Assembly: GCA_963575645.1 (NCBI GenBank)
Contig: OY754465.1
Coordinates: forward strand, 38,962,401 to 39,026,400
DNA length: 64,000 nucleotides
Direction of reading: 5' to 3'
DNA from: Xanthostigma xanthostigma
Taxonomy: Eukaryota; Arthropoda; Insecta; Raphidioptera; Raphidiidae
A model generated the notes under the pieces. It saw nothing but the letters and a program-made list of their open reading frames with translations. It did no database searches and had not been told where the DNA came from. Below are positions 13,846 through 62,390 of this stretch, piece after piece. The translations under genes were made by a program, and so were the position numbers. Position 1 is the stretch's first letter. The number at the start of each line of letters is the position of its first letter.

Positions 13846-15075
13846 ATTATTCGTTGCTTAAGCTATAAGGGCTGCTGGTAGAACGGTGAAAATTTAGGGT
13901 AAGAAATATTTTTATGGCAAATCATAAAAAAATTTTAAGAAAATTTTTGTCAAAAAAAAAAAAAGAGGGCCACCCTTATCACCTAGGGGTATAAAAAATA
14001 GCCTACGACCTATTCTCAGACCTACCAAGTATACACAAATTATTTCCTAAAAAGCGGTCAAGCCGTTTCGGAGGAGTTCAATAACAAACACTGTGACACG
14101 AGATTTTTATATAATAGTCTATAAGCACATAAAAAATTCAGTACCCTACTGTATACTAGAAAGTTCGTTTATTCTTAAAAAGACAATTATCATTTTTAAC
14201 GCAAACTGTAAGGTGGCAACTTTACCTATATTCTCTAGGCACCTAGTTGACTCTTACTTTGACGAGATTTTCAACCAACTAATATAACATTTATGTCTTA
14301 AGTATGACATCGAATTCCTCATATGCGGTCGAGAAACTAAGTTTTCTCGGCTCCCGTAAAGCAGATTAACTAAAATATTTATGTAATAGTGATTCTCCTT
14401 TGATATGACAGAAACTATGCGTTTTGATGTTTGATGCCTGTAAGGTAAATGTACCCAATTGGTTTCATCTAGATGTTTACCGTATAAGGATCTAAAAAAT
14501 AATTTAAAAAATAATAAACCTAGTTCATTTAGAAGAGGGATCAATATTTCTGTTAAAGTAGTTTATTTGAACCGATTTTTGACTGTAGGCAGGGGAAAAT
14601 CTAAAACAAAAAATAATAATATTTTGTCCTTTTCAATGTTATTCTAGGAAAAAGGCTGTAGATACTGGTAGGTTTTTTGAAGTTTATTACATTTTTTAAC
14701 AATTGTTTTTAATATTCTTAAATTTTCTTATATTACAGGTCGCCCAAATAATGCGACTAATCTTAAGATCTTTGTCATTGAATCCTAAATAATGTGATAA
14801 AAGTTTAATCCAAATCAGTCCAGTGATTCCTGAGAGATTTACGGTTATAACTATAATTATATATACGTACTCAAAGAAAATTGCAGTGGCGTCAAAACAC
14901 TTATTAAAAAAACATTCTAAACAAAATAGCCTCGAAATTTTTCAAATCGACGCACAACTGGCTGAGTTATCGCGGAATATAAACAAATAAAAAACCATAC
15001 GCTTTACACGTCGTATTTCTACTTATCTATGTACAATCATATTATATTATTATTATATCATATTATTATCATATT
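13846..15075. other. Unassigned, with LINE- or Helitron-like wording
   Basis: 14800-14990 includes AATCAGTCCAGTGATTCCTG and TTTTTCAAATCGACGCACAA, phrases typical of insect LINE 3' regions, without clear edges. A12 run at 13954-13965. ORFs at 14093, 14254 and 14459 overlap one another on both strands and show no domain. Confidence 0.35.
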
Positions 15076-15410
15076 AATATTATAAATGCGAATGTAAGTT
15101 TGTTTGTTACGCTTTCACGCAAAAACTACTTAACCGATCATCATGAAACTTTGCACATACACTCTTGAAGGTATTAGAAGTAACATAGGATACTTTTTAT
15201 TAAAAAAAAAATAAAAATTTTTTACGAAAATATTATCATATTATTAATAATGTAAGTTTGTTTGTTACGCTTTCACGCAAAAACTACTTAACCGATCATC
15301 ATGAAACTTTGCACATACACTCTTGAAGGTATTAGAAGTAACATAGGATACTTTTTATTAAAAAAAAAATAAAAATTTTTTACGAAAAATAAGAAATGTT
15401 ATCATTTTCA

Positions 15411-15668
15411 TATTATAAATGCGAATGTAAGTTTGTTTGTTACGCTTTCACGCAAAAACTACTTAACCGATCATCATGAAACTTTGCACATACACTCTTG
15501 AAGGTATTAGAAGTAACATAGGATACTTTTTATTAAAAAAAAATAAAAATTTTTTACGAAAAATAAGAAAATTGTTTGTCAAAATATGTGCAATACCTCA
15601 ACCCCTGATATGCATGTCAAAAGTCGATTTCCATCTCAATCGCGGGCGTAGCCGCGGGTAGCGGCTAG
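15411..15668 (+). mobile_element. Complete Helitron-like unit 1
   Basis: This 258 bp unit starts TATTATAAATGCGAATG. Near its end, CGCGGGCGTAGCCGCGG (15641-15657) forms a 5 bp stem hairpin 7 bp before the terminal CTAG, matching the Helitron rule of a hairpin followed by CTRR. The apparent 61-codon ORF at 15476-15661 is just this unit read through, and it recurs in every complete unit. Confidence 0.75.
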
Positions 15669-16007
15669 TAATAATATTATAAATGCGAATGTAAGTTTGT
15701 TTGTTACGCTTTCACGCAAAAAATACTTAACCGATCATCATGAAACTTTGCACATACACTCTTGAAGGTATTAGAAGTAACATAGGATACTTTTTATTAA
15801 AAAAAAAATAAAAATTTTTTACGAAAATATTATCATATTATTAATAATGTAAGTTTGTTTGTTACGCTTTCACGCAAAAACTACTTAACCGATCATCATG
15901 AAACTTTGCACATACACTCTTGAAGGTATTAGAAGTAACATAGGATACTTTTTATTAAAAAAAAAATAAAAATTTTTTACGAAAAATAAGAAATGTTATC
16001 ATTTTCA

Positions 16008-16265
16008 TATTATAAATGCGAATGTAAGTTTGTTTGTTACGCTTTCACGCAAAAACTACTTAACCGATCATCATGAAACTTTGCACATACACTCTTGAAG
16101 GTATTAGAAGTAACATAGGATACTTTTTATTAAAAAAAAATAAAAATTTTTTACGAAAAATAAGAAAATTGTTTGTCAAAATATGTGCAATACCTCAACC
16201 CCTGATATGCATGTCAAAAGTCGATTTCCATCTCAATCGCGGGCGTAGCCGCGGGTAGCGGCTAG
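16008..16265 (+). mobile_element. Complete Helitron-like unit 2
   Basis: Identical by eye to the unit 597 bp upstream, including the hairpin and the CTAG end (16262-16265). Confidence 0.75.
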
Positions 16266-16271
16266 TAATAA

Positions 16272-16529
16272 TATTATAAATGCGAATGTAAGTTTGTTTG
16301 TTACGCTTTCACGCAAAAACTACTTAACAGATCATCATGAAACTTTGCACATACACTCTTGAAGGTATTAGAAGTAACATAGGATACTTTTTATTAAAAA
16401 AAAATAAAAAAATTTTACGAAAAATAAGAAAATTGTTTGTCAAAATATGTGCAATACCTCAACCCCTGATATGCATGTCAAAAGTCGATTTCCATCTCAA
16501 TCGCGGGCGTAGCCGCGGGTAGCGGCTAG
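16272..16529 (+). mobile_element. Complete Helitron-like unit 3, array end
   Basis: A third 258 bp unit follows only 6 bp after the previous one. It differs at a few bases (CCGATC to CAGATC near 16327, AAAATTTTTT to AAAAAATTTT near 16408). It ends at GGCTAG and then enters unrelated DNA (TGAGAATATAATAC). Confidence 0.75.
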
Positions 16530-18245
16530 TGAGAATATAATACACACTAACCAATATTTATGTACACGATACTAAGTTCATTTATTTCTAACGATTATTT
16601 TTTCACACTGTCTATTTATTTATTACGTGGTGAATTAGCCCACTCATTTACTCGCAGTATAAGACTGATTTTGACTGCCTGTTGTTTCGTAAAGCATTGG
16701 CTTTTATATACTGGCAATAAAACAAACGCAGACACATCTGAACAAGTCGTAGAAACGTCCAGAAAACTCCCATTATTAAATAGTGCAACGAAAATATTCC
16801 ATACACAGTGGTGTGCCTTATATACAGATTAATCCGCTACAAAGCATATAATCATCGAAGAAGTATTTATGAACTATTTTTAAGTCGGTTAATAATGGCA
16901 TACCTGGAAAAAATTGAAAAGTTTTTAAACTTAACATTTAGGAAACTTCGTATACTAATTAGAGGACATTATAGGGACCTATATATATTATAGAAAGTAA
17001 ATTTCCTACAAGTTTTAAATGAGACTTTTTTAAATTATCGGAGTTAATGATCTAAAAATGGTTGATAAATTGAATATAAACATTTCTGTTCTGATTGCAG
17101 TCGTTGATATGTCAACTTTACCTTAAGCAAATATGGACACATAACCTACCATTAATGGCAAATTACTTTTCAAATTCAGGACACGCTTACAATAAATTAT
17201 TAATAATTTCACAATATCGTTTCTCATTTTGTAGAAACTTTGATAGTTTAGAAATTACACAAAGATTATATCGATTATTATTATTGCCTACATTAAATTC
17301 AACGTTTAATTATAAAAATTACGTTGATAAAACTCCGTTGAAAATAAAGTGCAGAAAACATGACTATTTGTTTGACTACTTTTCTTATGTAAAACTTGTT
17401 TTGTATTTTTGTGAGAGACATTTTTTTTTTCAATAAAAACATTTTGTATTTTACTTTTTTTTATAATATTTTTATAAAGGTATCCCTTAAATAACTCTTG
17501 CGATATTTTTTTTTCGTCAAGTCCTCGTATTTTATATGCCTCAAACAAATTTTTTGACCGACTTTCTATTTTTCTCTTTTGACAATACTACGTCGAGCGT
17601 CCATCATATCGAATTCTACGTGTCGTCACTCGTGAGATTATGAGTAACCATTCGACATCTTACCTTTGGTTAAAAGATGGTTAAATTCTTATATATATTT
17701 TATGTGTTAAAATTTCGATAGAAAACTTACGATAACAGGAAATTGAAAATATTTTCATTGATTTCAGAATTAAATAATGTAATCTGAACGTACCGTTTCA
17801 ACTGATAACCGGTAATGAAAACAGAATTGTATTGAATCGAGTCCATTAAAGATTTGCTTCCTGCCTGTTTCAATAGACAACAAATAATTTATCAATAACT
17901 CTAAAAACAAAAGATACGTTTTCCGTGTTGTTCAAAGAACAATGAAAGTATTGTTGTATATTCAGTTTAAATATATAAATTCCTCTGCGACTATGCATCG
18001 CTTTATTCTCACGTACCGCTGTCAACAAACAATCATTTACTGAAACGATTCATTGTGGATTCCATTCATCCAAAGCATTTTTTTCACGCGTTTCCTTCTT
18101 TCGCAAACAAAACTAACTATATAATATGGCAGCAGAATGAACGTTCCGTGTAGGATGACCTTCACCTTGTGTGTATGACATTTTAACGATTCTCTAATAC
18201 CCTAATTAATTCAGAGGGAACCACTGCCATCGTTTGAAAAATAGA
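16530..18245. other. Unassigned, several short ORFs
   Basis: ORFs of 90, 61 and 113 codons (16560-17436) follow one another on the plus strand, and TTCTGTTCTGATTGCAG at 17084-17100 looks like a 3' splice site. The peptides show no domain, and their composition is what AT-rich random sequence gives. I record this as the least implausible place for host exons, without calling one. Confidence 0.3.
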
Positions 18246-30495: not shown

Positions 30496-30947
30496 CAGGG
30501 TCGTATTTAGATTCGCATACCCGTTTATCGTTCACCCCGGAATTGTTTTTTTAAAAACTAAACATTTGCCCCTTCCCGTTTCACTGCGAGACAATTCGCA
30601 TACCCCTTTATCGTTCACCCCAGAATTACAATTCGCATACCCGTTTATCGTTCACCCCGGAATTGTTTTTTTAAAAACTCCACATTTGCCCCTTCCCGTT
30701 TCACTGCGAGACAATTCGCATACCCCTTTATCGTTCACCCCAGAATTACAATTCGCATACCCGTTTATCGTTCACCCCGGAATTGTTTTTTTAAAAACTC
30801 CACATTTGCCCCTTCCCGTTTCACTGCGAGACAATTCGCATACCCCTTTATCAAAAAAAGCGGTGGTTTTCAATCTTCATGAAAATGTGAGCTTTAAATT
30901 TAAAATTCGTTTTATAAATTAAAATTTCCAAATACGACTCTGCCCTG
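30496..30947. mobile_element. hAT-like TIR element carrying a minisatellite
   Basis: CAGGGTCGTATTTAGA at the left and TCCAAATACGACTCTGCCCTG at the right are inverted, differing by a 3 bp insertion. The CAGGG start is typical of hAT ends. The 8 bp flanks (TATGGAAG, ATCGTTCA) do not match, so the TSD is lost or the boundary differs. Most of the interior is a 120 bp tandem repeat. Confidence 0.55.
30511..30852 (+). repeat. 120 bp minisatellite, about 2.85 copies
   Basis: Units start at 30511, 30631 and 30751 and are almost identical. Each unit contains two 34 bp subrepeats (ATTCGCATACCCSTTTATCG then TTCACCCCRGAATT) and TTGCCCCTTCCCGTTTCACT. The period is divisible by three, so one frame stays open for 146 codons (30482-30922). 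The peptide is a 40-residue repeat and is not evidence of a gene. Confidence 0.9.
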
Positions 30948-55385: not shown

Positions 55386-56830
55386 GCCTACCTTATCCTA
55401 ATGTCCCAAAATTCCTTCATTCGCCCATTGCTATTAATTCAGTGGAAGTTTAAAAATCTAGAAAATAACGGGAAGTGTGATAGATGGAAAATAGTAATGG
55501 TGCGAATGGCATCAGATATGAAATAAAGTCGATAAACGGACGTTCAACTCATTATTATTATTATTATTAAATCAGAAAAAAAATTCAATTTCATTTGACT
55601 GTTTATGTGTAGGTGCTCTAACGACAACGTTCTTTAAAAGGTTAAATGAAAGAAAATTAAATTAAGGCGACTATATAAAGTAAATACTAAAGATCTCTCT
55701 ATAGATAGATATTTTGAGTTGTGAACATTGCTACAGTCCCCGAAGTAACATTTTATTTCACGCCATAGGTAAAAGCCACTCAAACCGTTCCATATTTGTA
55801 AAACTCACCTTCCTTTTCACTATTAAGAAAAGAAAGTCTAGAAGAAAATGAGCTGCATTTAACAAATTGAGTTTTCGTTAAATGGAAAATTCATTTTCAC
55901 AACAAAAATCAAAACGATTTTTTAAAAATATTTTTTGATAATGACTCGTTGTTGAACTAACAAAAACTTCTAATATCTTTATCGATACCAATCAATTTGA
56001 GAAATGATGTCACCTCTTAAAAACCTATTTCTTTCTCAGCAGCATAGGCTCATATAATATTACGCTATGAAGAGTGACCGAAAATAGGCGCATGTAGACT
56101 AACACACTTTCGTATGTTACTGGAGCATGCGCCAAGAGTCTGCAGAGTCGCAGAGGTATTCGCGCGTTCTAGAACAGGGGAGGAAAAAATGTGTGTGTAA
56201 GTCCAAAAATCTTGTTTTGTTCGACATTAAAATCAATCGGTGCAACAAACAAAAACGTGCGTAAGGCTCTCGCGCACTATAAGTGAAACTTCTTGGGTTC
56301 TAGCATTTGATGACGATTTTATTATTTCAAGATTAGAAAATGGTTATGTGGAATTTGTTACCATCACTAGAGAAAATGCTACGTATACACACAGTACGTA
56401 CTGCGCATGCGTGTAAAGCGGGTATGACGCTTTAATTGAGAGAGTAAAAACGATTATTCCAATCTTTCTTCTCGACTGCCGATTGAAGTCGGAGAAGGGG
56501 AAACGTAACACTTTTCGTCTGATCCAGGTCCATTTCCCCTACCGCGCCTAAAGAGCTTTACCTGAGGTTAAAATAAAACATGTAAACAATACATAAATTG
56601 TTGGGTATGTAGTTTTTTATGTATATACTGTATAGTGTAGAGATAAAGATAAATAAAATGTAAATTCGCTCTAGGGATCTTTAAAATTACAAACTAATTT
56701 AGGATTTTACATATTTGTGTATAGTCGTTTGAACAAAAAAATAAGTTTTGTCAAATGATCGATGTTTTCAACGTTGAGCTGACAAAATTGACACATAAAT
56801 TAACTGCGTAATGAATATAGTTCCATTTTT
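55386..56830. other. Unassigned, with a GC-richer block
   Basis: (ATT)n run at 55551-55568. 56060-56545 is GC-richer (GAGCATGCGCCAAGAGTCTG, CGTACTGCGCATGCGTGTAA, GATTGAAGTCGGAGAAGGGG), unlike its surroundings, with no ORF and no inverted ends that I can find. An untranslated or regulatory region or an unknown MITE is possible. Confidence 0.35.
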
Positions 56831-57915
56831 ACCCGACTGCGACGCAGCCAAAAAGGTAGGGTTTTAAGTAAGCAGTGTGTTTGTATTTACGGATGTTCCA
56901 CCGTAGCGCCTAAACTATTCATCCGATTTTGACAAATAAGGGGTCAATCGATTCTTTATTATGGCCCGGGTATCATCGGTATATTTATTTTTGAATTTTG
57001 ATCCTAGAGGAGAGCAAATTGAAAACAAATAAAAAATAAGTTCAAAAACTAAAACCTAACAACTGAAAAGTATGAAACAAGAAAATATTCTTATCTAAGG
57101 ATAGCCATAGTCGTATGTCATCTCATATATATGATGTTTATGATATAGATGTATAGCGTGATGCACTTTGCCTTAGAGGTGATCGCTTACTACTGTTAAA
57201 ATGTAATGTTTTCTTTGGGTAGGTGGCATATGACTACGCCTATCTTCAGATGGGAATATTTTCTTGTTTCATACTTTTCAGTAGTCTGATTTTATTTTTC
57301 GAAGTTTATTTATTTTTATTTTTTATTTTATTTATTTTATTATCCCTATATTATTTTTTATTACATTTATATTTTCTTCGAATAAGATGACGAATCTTCG
57401 TTGAGTTTGTAAAAATGTCGTTTGAACGCGTTAATCTAAATTTCTTGAATATTCGTCAATATCTCCGGACGTTTTAATCATTCCTTAGTTAAAACTTGTA
57501 CTGTTTACTTTTCTTTACTCAGTGCAGCTTTGGTACGTATACAATCACATGGAACGCACGCTCACATAGACGATACGATTATATCAGTTTATTGGAATCG
57601 ATTTTGCCATACCGCTGCTTATATATATATTTATTTTGTAATAGATACAGAAACAAGCGCAAACGAAAGGTGATTTTTCACCGAAAAGGTAAAAAATATA
57701 TTCATTAATTTCGAAAGAGAATTTTATTATTCATCCGCAATTTATAAATACAATAAAAATGGCTTTCCGTCAAAGAGGTAAAATATAAGTTCTTTACGGG
57801 CTAAATTATTTTGCTAGTAGAACCAGTGGTGTGTTTGTGAAGATCCGTTATTATAATATTTAACACGCTTGCATTTACTTGATTTGTATGTTGTACGTTA
57901 TTACAAATATTAATA
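56831..57915 (+). repeat. Direct repeat copy 1 flanking the ORF1-only LINE
   Basis: ACCCGACTGCGACGCAGCCA (56831-56850) starts a dispersed repeat. From 56862 to 57915 (1,054 bp) it is duplicated at 59650-60703 with three substitutions noticed and no net indel. Inside is a foldback of about 60 bp arms (57061-57125 against 57222-57291: GAAAAGTATGAAACAAGAAA and its inverse). A 70-codon frame at 57496-57708 begins at TTG, not ATG, and occurs in both copies. Confidence 0.9.
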
Positions 57916-59649
57916 GAATAATATAATAATAATAATAATAAATGTACTGTATTTCGGTAAGTAACCATTACAGGGGGATTGGCAATACAACAATAATTAA
58001 AATATAACTTACTAATAATTAAATCTATATAAAAAAAAGTAAATACTTATAGAACAATCTTAGCAGATAATAATCCTTTTTCATGAACATCGCAATTCCA
58101 CCATTTACACGTCCTAAACTCTTTTCTTTTACTACCTCAGTATAAAATAATTCACAATTATTATATTACCTAAACATCTCATTTCCCGTTATTTATAAAG
58201 GATTCAATGTTTCTACCAGACAGCAAACATCATTGTTATAATGTCTCGAATTAGCATACTATCTAAGTTTTCTATATTATAACACTGGTATCATAAATAT
58301 TCCAAAAACATTTTTCAAATTGTTTTCCCTTCAAATACTGATTCGGAGACAATATACTATATTGAACAGCTGACTGTCTATTTTTGAAGAGTATACGTCA
58401 TTTCGAAATTTACTATACCGCGTTTCACTATGACTATTAAAATGTACCATTCTACTAAAACTGATATCATACCTAATTTGAGTTATCTAATTTTTACCAC
58501 GCATATTTTCATTTGCTCCTACCCTTTGGCTGTGTCCGGTGAACTGGACTTTTCTAAAACAAAATATCTGTCAATTGTTTTCTCTGCACTTATTTTCCTT
58601 TTCTTTGTTCTATCTTGTTCCCTGCATTCCTCTTCATCTCTTGTAGTTACTGCTTGTGTATAATATGTTTTCTTCTCCTTTAAAATTATATTGTTTTCGA
58701 TCTGTCTATTAGTTTTTTCTAAGTGTAAGTCTTGAAGACTGTACAATTTTCCGTCTAAGTATATCTTATTACCTTTTAAGTAACTTCTGTTACCTTCTTT
58801 CCTTGCCTTAATCATAAACGGGATCAGCTGTTTTCTCTCTTGTATTGTCTCCTTCACGTAATCATTTTCTATCCAAAGATTACTACCTCTTAATGCTTTA
58901 GAACCAGACATTACGTCATATTTTAATAACCTTGATCTAAAAGCAATGACTATTGGCCTAGTTTTACCCTCCGTTTTTTTCCCGATCCTATTAACATAAT
59001 TTATGTCATATATATCGAGGTTGATTTGAAGTTTCTCTTTAAGTAATTCGTATATAGAATTAACCAGAAAGGTTCGATTTTCGTTTTTATTTTCTTTCAT
59101 CCCAAATAAAATAATGTTATTCTTCTTATTTTCTTTTTGAAGTTGAACTATAACTTGTTCTTGTTGTGCTACTTTACTATGAATATTTTCAATTTTTTCT
59201 TCATTTTTATTAATCTTTTCTTCAAAACTTTTCAATTTTAGTGCTATACCCGAAATTTCTTCTTTAACTCCTTTAAAATCTTTTCTAAGCTGTTCTATTA
59301 TTGCCAACAGTTTATCAAGTTTAGCTTCCATTTGTACCATAATTTTTTGATATCGGAATGAACTATATTATCAAATTGTGGTTCGTCGTTTGACAAGTTG
59401 AATTAGGAATTGGAGAGCAAGCAAATCTCGCCTTTAACAACACTTGTTTTAATGTAACGTTTTTAAACAAAAAACTAATTTTATTAAAATTATTACACCC
59501 TTAACTGTTAAAATAAGATCTCTATTCACATTTCCTAACCGTTTATCACAATATTTTAACTATAACTGCTGTAAAAACTACTAAAAGTTATTTTTTTTAC
59601 AGAGCAAATAAAAACGTGTATGCTTATAGTCACGCACACTACCATACCC
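57916..59649 (-). mobile_element. ORF1-only LINE derivative
   Basis: Reading on the minus strand, a 309 bp leader precedes the ORF1 start at 59340. ORF1 ends at 58519. The remaining 600 bp carry no reading frame or endonuclease/RT motif, and the element ends TACCGAAATACAGTACATTT then (TTA)n at 57916-57950. Both edges coincide with the junctions of the 1,054 bp direct repeat. I infer a non-autonomous LINE that lost ORF2, comparable in layout to mammalian HAL1. Class could be RTE- or L1-like. Confidence 0.75.
58519..59340 (-). CDS. LINE ORF1 protein (coiled coil, RRM, C-terminal domain)
   Basis: This 273-residue protein is intact from ATG to stop. Residues about 5-72 are heptad-rich and charged (LDKLLAIIEQLRK, KINKNEEKIENIHSKV), a coiled coil expected to trimerise. 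Residues 74-135 look like an RRM, with NNIILFG as the first strand, NRIGKK, then RPIVIAF as the RNP1-like strand. Residues 150-205 (LWIENDYVKETIQERKQL, ARKEGNRSYL) form the CTD seen in L1/RTE-type insect ORF1 proteins. A basic KKRK at 246-249 may be a nuclear signal. Such proteins coat LINE RNA and act as chaperones in the retrotransposition particle. ORF2 is missing downstream, so mobility would need a partner. The uninterrupted frame suggests recent activity. Family assignment is from motif recall, not a search. Confidence 0.85.
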   Translation of the reverse strand: MVQMEAKLDKLLAIIEQLRKDFKGVKEEISGIALKLKSFEEKINKNEEKIENIHSKVAQQEQVIVQLQKENKKNNIILFGMKENKNENRTFLVNSIYELLKEKLQINLDIYDINYVNRIGKKTEGKTRPIVIAFRSRLLKYDVMSGSKALRGSNLWIENDYVKETIQERKQLIPFMIKARKEGNRSYLKGNKIYLDGKLYSLQDLHLEKTNRQIENNIILKEKKTYYTQAVTTRDEEECREQDRTKKRKISAEKTIDRYFVLEKSSSPDTAKG

Positions 59650-60703
59650 TTTTAAGTAAGCAGTGTGTTTGTATTTACGGATGTTCCACCGTAGCGCCTA
59701 AACTATTCATCCGATTTTGACAAATAAGGGGTCAATCGATTTTTTATTATGGCCCGGGTATCATCGGTATATTTATTTTTGAATTTTGATCCTAGAGGAG
59801 AGCAAATTGAAAACAAATAAAAAATAAGTTCAAAAACTAAAACCTAACAACTGAAAAGTATGAAACAAGAAAATATTCTTATCTAAGGATAGCCATAGTC
59901 GTATGTCATCTCATATATATGATGTTTATGATATAGATGTATAGCGTGATGCACTTTGCCTTAGAGGTGATCGCTTACTACTGTTAAAATGTAATGTTTT
60001 CTTTGGGTAGGTGGCATATGACTACGCCTATCTTCAGATGGGAATATTTTCTTGTTTCATACTTTTCAGTAGTCTGATTTTATTTTTCGAAGTTTATTTA
60101 TTTTTATTTTTTATTTTATTTATTTTATTATCCCTATATTATTTTTTATTACATTTATATTTTCTTCGAATAAGATGACGAATCTTCGTTGAGTTTGTAA
60201 AAATGTCGTTTGAACGCGTTAATCTAAATTTCTTGAATATTCGTCAATATCTCCGGACGTTTTAATCATTCCTTAGTTAAAACTTGTACTGTTTACTTTT
60301 CTTTACTCAGTGCAGCTTTGGTACGTATACAATCACATGGAACGCACGCTCACATAGACGATACGATTATATCAGTTTATTGGAATCGATTTTGCCATAC
60401 CGCTGCTTATATATATATTTATTTTGTAATAGATACAGAAACAAGCGCAAAAGAAAGGTGATTTTTCACCGAAAAGGTAAAAAATATATTCATTAATTTC
60501 GAAAGAGAATTTTATTATTCATCCGCAATTTATAAATACAATAAAAATGGCTTTCCGTCAAGGAGGTAAAATATAAGTTCTTTACGGGCTAAATTATTTT
60601 GCTAGTAGAACCAGTGGTGTGTTTGTGAAGATCCGTTATTATAATATTTAACACGCTTGCATTTACTTGATTTGTATGTTGTACGTTATTACAAATATTA
60701 ATA
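59650..60703 (+). repeat. Direct repeat copy 2 flanking the ORF1-only LINE
   Basis: It matches 56862-57915 at a constant offset of 2,788 bp. Differences seen are T for C (59739), A for C (60451) and G for A (60563). It starts exactly where the LINE 5' end stops and lacks the ACCCGACTGCGACGCAGCC lead of copy 1. This is what a very long target-site duplication, or a partial tandem duplication, would leave. Confidence 0.9.
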
Positions 60704-62134
60704 TGAGTCAATCAATATTTATAATTTATTATTATTTTTCAACTTTTATATAGGGTCATACATATTATTTAATTTTTCAAATACTGGTGCTGAAGTTAAC
60801 AACGTAAAAAAATCTTGCAACTCGATTTTCAGCATCTTCTAAATGCTAACTTGACGTGAAACTACAGTCGTACGTAGTTTGGATGATTACAATAATCTGA
60901 TATAAATAATAAAGAATGGAAAAATAAGTGGTGGGAGTGACGGTCTTGATGGTGGGAAGACGTCACTCCAGGCATTTAAAATAAAATATAATATATACCT
61001 TTAATGATTAATAATTTGAAAATAAAATTTACAGTTTAAAAAAATCTAAAAAGCACACATATCAACACACTAAAAAATAGAAAATACATTTCTTCACGTT
61101 TAAAAGCGTGGGACACTCGAATTAAATGAAATATAGGTAAAGTGAGAGCCCCACCCTTTCGAAACATTGTAAAGAAGAAAAAATTCTTTTCAACTTCTGA
61201 GTGCGTTGATTTGACCGAGTTCTCAGTTTTTTTAAATTAAAATTGGTATAAACTTATAAAAATACATCTATCTGAAAAGCTAACCTTTTCAAACGATAAA
61301 TGAAAAATTATTTCACATTACTGACCGCAAGAGATGCAAAAAATATTTTATGGAATCACTGTTCGCCCGTGTGTCACAAACCGTTTTCTTTTAAACTATC
61401 TGATGTAGTTTCTCTTTTTATTTTTTAATAAAAGGAACCGTGAAAGATATGCAGAACAGATTACTCTCTCTGCATGTATAATGTCAGCTTACTACGATTG
61501 TCTATAACAGGTCTATAATAGACGAGCGAACTGTTTTCAATATTTTAATTCAGACATATAAATCCGGAAAATGAACCATTTCGTATAATGCACAATACAG
61601 TTGATAAACTGTGCCGTCACTCTATTTTTTTCCCAAGGTTGTTTATTGAACTGGTATCAAATATCACATCCAATAAATTGCAGCATTTATCTCGGACATG
61701 ATACATTTTCCTCTTTTATAAAAATAATACAATAAACGTCAAACAAAAAACACCACAAACGCATCCGACACATTTGTTATATGAAGGAGGGGGAGGGGGA
61801 ATGATTCCGCCTTTGAAACAGCACACCTGAGACCAGCACAGTATTAATATATACTCGGTTCTCGGTTCCGCCCTATATACAGAATCAGAGCTGGACAAAC
61901 TTTTTTTATAAAAACAGGTTAGCCAGATGTAACACCCTTCCTTTGCAAAAAGTTTCTCTTAAAAATATAATAAAATATGACGTAAGTATAAACATTCCCG
62001 AATTTACTTTTTGTTGGCTGAAGTATCTATTTTTATAATACTGCTTTATACCGGAAAAATTACAACTTTTATATTTTTTATAAGAACATATTATCTACAT
62101 AAATAAGGGAAGTAAAAAAGAGTGTGTGAGTGTG
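60704..62134. other. Unassigned DNA
   Basis: GGGAGTGACGGTCTTGATGG with GACGTCACTCC (60933-60972) is a small inverted pair. A G-rich run GGAGGGGGAGGGGG lies at 61785-61798. A 60-codon ORF at 61716-61898 reads through it and is not a gene. Confidence 0.35.
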
Positions 62135-62390
62135 TTAATTCGTACATATCGTGATGAAACATACATCGTCCTCTTCGTTTTATGAGGGGAAGTGCGCAAT
62201 ATATGTTTCATCACGATATGTACGAGTTAACACAGATAAAATCGATTCAGAAATAATTCATATACGACGTGTACGAATTAACAGGTACGATTCAGGAGAA
62301 ATCCATATAATGGCAAAAAAACCTCAATAACGTTCAAACTTGAAAATTTAATTAATTACGGTCGAATTTCGACCACTAATTTATATCAAT
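62135..62390 (-). repeat. Family G foldback repeat, copy 2
   Basis: GTTAATTCGTACATATCGTG, ATGAAACATAC and its inverse ATATGTTTCATCACGATATG, TACGAGTTAACAC make a 38 bp-arm hairpin at 62135-62234. It is followed by GTGTACGAATTAACAGGTAC, AGGAGAAATCCATATAATGG, AAAACCTCAATAACG and GGTCGAATTTCGACCACTAA. The order is the inverse of 23773-23975. Confidence 0.6.

Follow-up and report, generated by a model that had tools for sequence, protein, structure and literature searches.

What gives a LINE insert in a natural genome two flanking direct repeats of about a kilobase? This question is raised by a locus in a 64,000-nt stretch of the Xanthostigma xanthostigma genome (referred to here as the window; GCA_963575645.1, contig OY754465.1, positions 38,962,401 to 39,026,400), in which a minus-strand insert lies between two direct repeats of 1,054 bp each. 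A previous interpretation based on the nucleotide sequence (the sequence-only reading) had proposed that these repeats represent a very long target-site duplication. To place the locus in context, the complete 623-Mb assembly (28 contigs, with the window mapping to contig C2) was searched, all loci being read from this one assembly of one individual. The results obtained support the proposal: the locus probably represents a long target-site duplication made in the target-primed insertion of an ORF1-only LINE derivative, with the second 3' end positioned about 1 kb away.

Alignment of the two repeat copies (Table 1) was ungapped and revealed three substitutions (56954 C/T, 57664 C/A and 57774 A/G, copy 1/copy 2), with identity coming to an abrupt stop at either side. 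The repeats, their three substitutions and the minus-strand orientation of the enclosed insert were thereby shown to have been described correctly to the base. The insert (57916-59649) was found to consist of a single G and the element itself, which touches copy 1 with its (TTA)n end and copy 2 with its 5' end, so that the duplication lies directly at both element ends, as in a LINE target-site duplication and as was also observed for other copies of the element. Its length exceeds the 100 bp above which an insertion with a normal tail and element end is regarded as a large-duplication insertion. The fit of the repeats to the element ends is more than chance, as a second locus with this element and three further loci with other LINE families display this arrangement as well. 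Elsewhere in the window, tandem blocks were observed at 15066-16542 and 30511-30852 (copies 99% identical, spaced by about 600 bp and 120 bp), as well as an inverted repeat at 62131-62234 (46-nt arms, 87% complementary, 12 nt apart).

Table 1. Features of the insertion locus and its flanks (positions in the window)
Feature	Position	Strand	Remarks
Copy 1 of direct repeat	56862..57915		Duplication copy at the element's 3' side; ungapped versus copy 2
Copy 2 of direct repeat	59650..60703		Duplication copy directly adjoining the 5' end of the element
Putative ORF1-only LINE derivative, 1,733 bp	57917..59649	-	5' end GGGTATGGTAG... at 59649; 3' tail (TTA)n at ~57917-57942; both ends common to three other copies
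Intact ORF1, 273 aa	58519..59340	-	Coiled coil and L1-ORF1p-like region
Broken remnant of ORF2 endonuclease N-terminus	58043..58234	-	Stops interrupt the frame; remaining ORF2 absent
3'-terminal ~74 bp, also present in a distinct dispersed family of short (~135 bp) repeats	57917..57990	-	Sequence comparison, 6 loci
Dispersed, partly palindromic host repeat	56822..57320		Spans the left edge of copy 1; inverted arms 57016-57123 / 57221-57328

Based on its coding content, the insert is read as an internally deleted, ORF1-only and non-autonomous LINE derivative. Residues 35-176 of ORF1 matched the solved structure of human LINE-1 ORF1p (2ykp; phmmer, E 9e-4), and a Pfam search of ORF1 returned sub-threshold matches only. 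The endonuclease remnant exhibited 52% identity across 64 columns to ORF2 of the related LINE L040 (tblastn, E 5e-17), and neither a frame nor a match for a reverse transcriptase was detected in the 1,733-bp element. An autonomous LINE would possess an ORF2 with endonuclease and reverse transcriptase, of which only the broken endonuclease remnant is present here; an intact ORF1, a deleted ORF2 and two ends that were kept and multiplied (four copies) are instead the attributes of an ORF1-only, HAL1-like element. Hallmarks of a target-primed, APE-type LINE insertion are evident from the 3' (TTA)n tail and from 5' truncation among other copies. The previous designation of the insert as a LINE was accurate as regards strand, tail and end positions, and has to be amended in that the element is not a complete LINE, encoding ORF1 and no reverse transcriptase.

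A candidate autonomous partner sharing the 3' end of the element was rejected, as the family carrying the element's last 74 bp (L043, L045 and L047-L050, near 1501-1635) has the appearance of a short repeat of ~135 bp and not of a full LINE; this family may represent a SINE using the same enzyme as the element. A related autonomous LINE was identified at C11:11370976 onward, with an intact ORF1 and a 1,181-aa ORF2 specifying endonuclease and reverse transcriptase. At the DNA level it is weakly alike to the element, its 3' end giving no clear match, and its target duplication is about 12 bp in length. Searches for the LINE clade against Pfam and PDB returned APE and RVT_1 domains, with matches to L1, R2 and other reverse transcriptases.

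A genome-wide search for the element, in which 40 of 56 candidates were scored, identified four copies with both ends: the window copy, C3:34513017-34514749, C5:14176711-14178446 and the interrupted C3:36654714-36657544. The copy at C3:34513017 differs from the window copy at 4 of 1,733 positions, two of which are within the tail. It is situated in unrelated DNA and flanked by a pair of direct repeats of its own (963 bp), which differ from each other by one substitution and exhibit no long similarity to the 1,054-bp repeats (best match 20 bp). The first ~354 bp of the 963-bp repeat correspond to an abundant dispersed repeat and the remainder matched only the two flanks (40 of 967 candidates scored), just as the right 594 bp of the 1,054-bp repeat matched only at the two flanks in the window (40 of 537 candidates scored). 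The two other full-length copies were shown to possess duplications of 14 and 15 bp, and duplications of 22 bp, about 8-10 bp and 11 bp were observed for three 5'-truncated copies; no duplication was readable at C6:29783801, C7:11833559, C12:20050978, C3:20304258 or C1:36272007. At C8:31506212-31512772 (L025 and L033), about 6 kb of other DNA interrupts a copy of the element, with a 5-base overlap in element coordinates, as an LTR element would leave.

Because other copies carry unrelated 963-bp or short duplications, the 1,054-bp repeats do not belong to the element. The sequence-only reading had singled out the presence of the 1,054-bp sequence at other copies as the observation that would speak against it, and this sequence is absent from the three other copies with both ends. 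It had also suggested measuring the duplications of further copies, which were found to include long and short ones (963, 14, 15 and 22 bp); together with the 963-bp repeats of the second insertion, these data argue for the proposed target-site duplication. Whereas the duplication of the window copy lies far beyond the ordinary LINE range of about 5-30 bp, those of 14, 15 and 22 bp fall within it, and the element also makes ordinary duplications, as is evident from the older full-length copies, the truncated 22-bp copy and the related autonomous LINE.

The dispersed host repeat (Table 1) bears on the question of which junction is ancestral. It crosses the left edge of copy 1 and is truncated at the left edge of copy 2, corroborating the earlier observation that copy 2 is devoid of the upstream part of this repeat. 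Ten of 12 examined copies of the dispersed repeat reach upstream past the position equivalent to 56862 (eight as one piece and two as a separate piece), the other two not doing so; this comparison of repeat sequences indicates that the junction between host DNA and the left of copy 1 is ancestral. At C3:34513017, palindromic repeat arms are located on either side of the matching copy 1 edge, and at a further locus on C11, with a 522-bp duplication (see below), the outer edge of the duplication copy at the element's 3' side lies within a perfect hairpin. The edge repeats of all three loci therefore agree with a host-segment-host order before insertion. No dispersed repeat was found to cross the junction between copy 2 and position 60704 among the places scored.

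To explore long duplications at other LINEs, 38 other ORF1-bearing copies were picked from 104 matches, mostly from groups of similar score that were taken as young, and their 5' flanks were fetched. For 30 of these, the 120-220 bp adjoining the element 5' end were searched genome-wide for a second nearby copy on the same strand; the other eight were left out because their flanks seemed repetitive (L052, L076, L080 and L085), because they lay in long identical duplicates (L055, L056 and L084) or because the 5' end was not located (L060). L078 was dropped as satellite, leaving 29 informative copies, the full-length status of which was deduced from their shared 5' end, with the 3' end read in four (L057, L066, L082 and L086). 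Long duplications were identified in three of the 29 (366 bp at C4:28664509, 522 bp at C11:19202568 and 280 bp at C12:13219188), in a survey that is mostly blind to duplications under about 100 bp and that, with 40 places scored per flank, could miss a near-identical second copy in repeat flanks (e.g. L054, L059, L069, L070, L079 and L088). Two cases with an opposite-strand copy downstream were counted as non-duplications, namely L088 (identical, 3 kb downstream) and L070 (95%, 4 kb downstream).

No difference was present within any of the three duplication pairs (100% identity). At the C12 locus, the 280-bp duplication is separated from the LINE 5' end by 18 additional bases (C12:13218707-13218724; L086:1018-1035), compared with direct contact or a gap of no more than a few bases at each of the four remaining long loci. 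Since the flanks of sister copies in the surveyed families diverge at the element 5' end, these long repeats are not part of the elements either. When the four copies of the window's element are added, duplications of at least 280 bp were present in 5 of 33 copies, which is not significantly above a rate of 10% (P of five or more=0.23), and the genome may not be unusual in its rate of long duplications; for the window's element alone, with two of four copies being long, P was 0.05 against the same rate. Among the copies considered for the survey, L083/L084 (C13:17663700 and C13:17870490) and L055/L056 (C1:41283090 and C1:41382500) were 100% and 99.9% identical, respectively, across ~1.5 kb including flank, and are probably recent segmental duplications.

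The insertions with long duplications were shown to be young, the members of the repeat pairs differing at three positions in 1,054 bp, one in 963 bp and none in 366, 522 and 280 bp, compared with a divergence of roughly 2% or more between the window copy and the two full-length copies with short duplications. This difference bears out the previous claim that the event was recent. Among the full-length copies of the element, long duplications are confined to the two youngest, a pattern that fits a loss of long duplications over time, but one that two copies cannot prove.

Regarding mechanism, we propose that the non-autonomous derivative was recently inserted by target-primed reverse transcription, for which an autonomous LINE would have supplied the reverse transcriptase in trans. 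In this scenario, a nick in the plus strand, placed at the right border of the 1,054-bp segment, would have provided an A/T-rich 3' end from which the (UUA)n-tailed RNA would then have been copied. On the minus strand, the 3' end used to complete the 5' side would have been located about 1,054 bp away, as compared with the usual 10-20 bp, and fill-in of both strands would have generated one copy of the segment on each side of the element. Duplication length would accordingly equal the distance between two opposite-strand 3' ends, set by a distant nick or free 3' end, and one event would account for each locus. The finding that both young copies of the element have duplications near 1 kb (n=2) is not explained by a nick at random distance.

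Two factors that could underlie a distant second 3' end were evaluated. Loss of nucleotide excision repair, a pathway known to keep duplications short, is not supported, as searches for two of its genes identified an XPC-like match (Rad4 domain, partial match, 72 bits) and an XPA_C match (96 bits) in the genome. The distal edge of the 522-bp duplication (C11:19198425, L092) coincides with the tip of a hairpin (perfect 24-bp stem, 3-base loop); a second nick at a hairpin tip was, however, rejected as a general explanation, as it holds at this one of the five long loci, the best stem at the other four being no better than background.

Several rival explanations were weighed against these data. 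Sister-chromatid bridging, in which cDNA initiated at the right edge on one chromatid is linked to a 3' end at a distance of about 1 kb on the replicated sister to produce a tandem duplication with the element at its junction, is a version of the long target-site duplication with the same end product and not an exclusive alternative to it. It has the advantage of not requiring a 1-kb duplex to be unwound, and it was invoked to explain a tumour case in which a single L1 insertion bridges a tandem duplication of 22.6 Mb (PMC7058536). Nothing in the present loci distinguishes bridging from a distant nick, and, relative to the tumour case, the five lengths observed (280-1,054 bp) are all short, for which reasons we consider this route conceivable, if rather doubtful. 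The same end product could in principle also arise from a two-step history, in which a 1,054-bp tandem duplication occurred earlier or later and the element came to be located at its junction by chance. The sequence-only reading had kept such a partial tandem duplication, with a chance breakpoint at the LINE edge, as its alternative; it would require the element 5' end to coincide with a duplication junction five times, to within a few bases in four cases and to within 18 bases in the fifth, which renders it very unlikely.

An assembly artefact, in which one repeat copy was duplicated in error (for example, around a heterozygous insertion), would call for a false join at the element 5' end at five loci representing four element groups. 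Furthermore, two of the five repeat pairs carry substitutions and the window contains no N, and an artefact is therefore deemed improbable, to a slightly lesser degree than the two-step history. Two direct repeats around an internal open frame are also reminiscent of an LTR-like or Penelope-like element, of which the 1,054-bp sequences would be the terminal repeats. Such an element would have the same terminal repeats at all of its copies, and was rejected, as other copies of the internal part are without repeats or have different flanks, the right 594 bp was matched only at the window locus among the 40 of 537 candidates scored, and the inner part represents a LINE ORF1 with a LINE tail; this possibility is considered negligible. 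The long target-site duplication outlined above, whether completed at a distant nick or by bridging, thus remains the preferred reading.

The last half of LINE integration, i.e. cutting of the second strand and joining, is poorly understood, and long duplications directly record the position of the second 3' end. In the papers cited here, the long duplications stem from engineered insertions in cultured cells. Several such insertions in a natural genome, distributed over more than one LINE group, would allow this question to be tested in a whole animal. The current findings also show a route by which LINEs can generate tandem copies of host sequence up to a kilobase in length. More speculatively, second-strand completion might often be uncoupled from the first nick in this species, with LINEs regularly duplicating 0.3-1 kb of host DNA in the germline. 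Most of these duplications would be transient, as recombination between the repeats removes the element, so that only the youngest insertions would display them and searches up to 30-50 bp would miss them. This broader scenario is put forward tentatively and is, in our estimation, less probable than its converse.

Surveys of natural insertions have been directed at short duplications. A human/chimpanzee survey was confined to duplications of 5-30 bp, with longer ones said to need study (PMC2912911), and a Bov-B survey used duplications of 10-49 bp (PMC13295347), which suggests that cases such as the present ones would not be counted. A median duplication of 13 bp was reported for human germline and somatic insertions (PMC12016303), and terms for long duplications had no match in the available text of that paper. 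A kilobase LINE duplication in a natural genome was not found among the listed titles and abstract openings of the open-access literature (up to 20 of as many as 660 papers), and the available parts of PMC4245944, PMC8090852 and PMC2996970 contained nothing bearing on kilobase duplications.

In cultured cells, conversely, long duplications are already known, being rare in normal cells and common in repair-deficient human cells (PMC5223499 and PMC2666801). L1 duplications of more than 100 bp never exceeded 10% of events in HeLa cells, and were observed in 4 of 7, 21 of 23 and 22 of 28 insertions in human cells without XPA, XPC and XPD, respectively (PMC5223499). The median L1 duplication was 1,495 bp in nucleotide-excision-repair-deficient human cells, compared with 14 bp in complemented cells, 3 of 9 duplications in the latter, repair-restored cells being over 100 bp (PMC5223499). 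The explanation proposed by its authors is an unrelated nick at a distance, together with the suggestion that recombination between the repeats makes insertions of this kind short-lived (PMC5223499). What is new here is the recurrence of long duplications in a natural genome and their presence in a non-autonomous element.

With respect to the element itself, HAL1 (half-L1) is an internally deleted, non-autonomous LINE, and resembles the present element in that ORF1 and the element ends are kept and the reverse transcriptase is missing. R2 and R2/R1 derivatives (PMC3414825) are likewise internally deleted non-autonomous LINEs with element ends kept and without reverse transcriptase. Both HAL1 and the R2-type derivatives differ from the element in being found in other hosts. 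With respect to the duplications, the closest counterpart in normal cells is ZfL2-2 in DT40 chicken cells, where a 1,228-bp duplication is comparable to that of about 1 kb observed here, and where it was reported for 1 of 25 insertions, as opposed to two of the four full-length copies of the present element (PMC2666801). De novo human L1 insertions are similarly target-primed, with the same geometry and with duplications of hundreds of bases to several kilobases; they were obtained with a reporter L1 in cultured cells, whereas the present insertions occur in a natural genome, involve several LINE groups and are accompanied by XPC/XPA-like matches (PMC5223499). Finally, the tumour case bridged by L1 (PMC7058536) shares with the locus described here an element positioned at the junction of a tandem duplication, and differs from it in being somatic and in spanning 22.6 Mb, as compared with about 1 kb.
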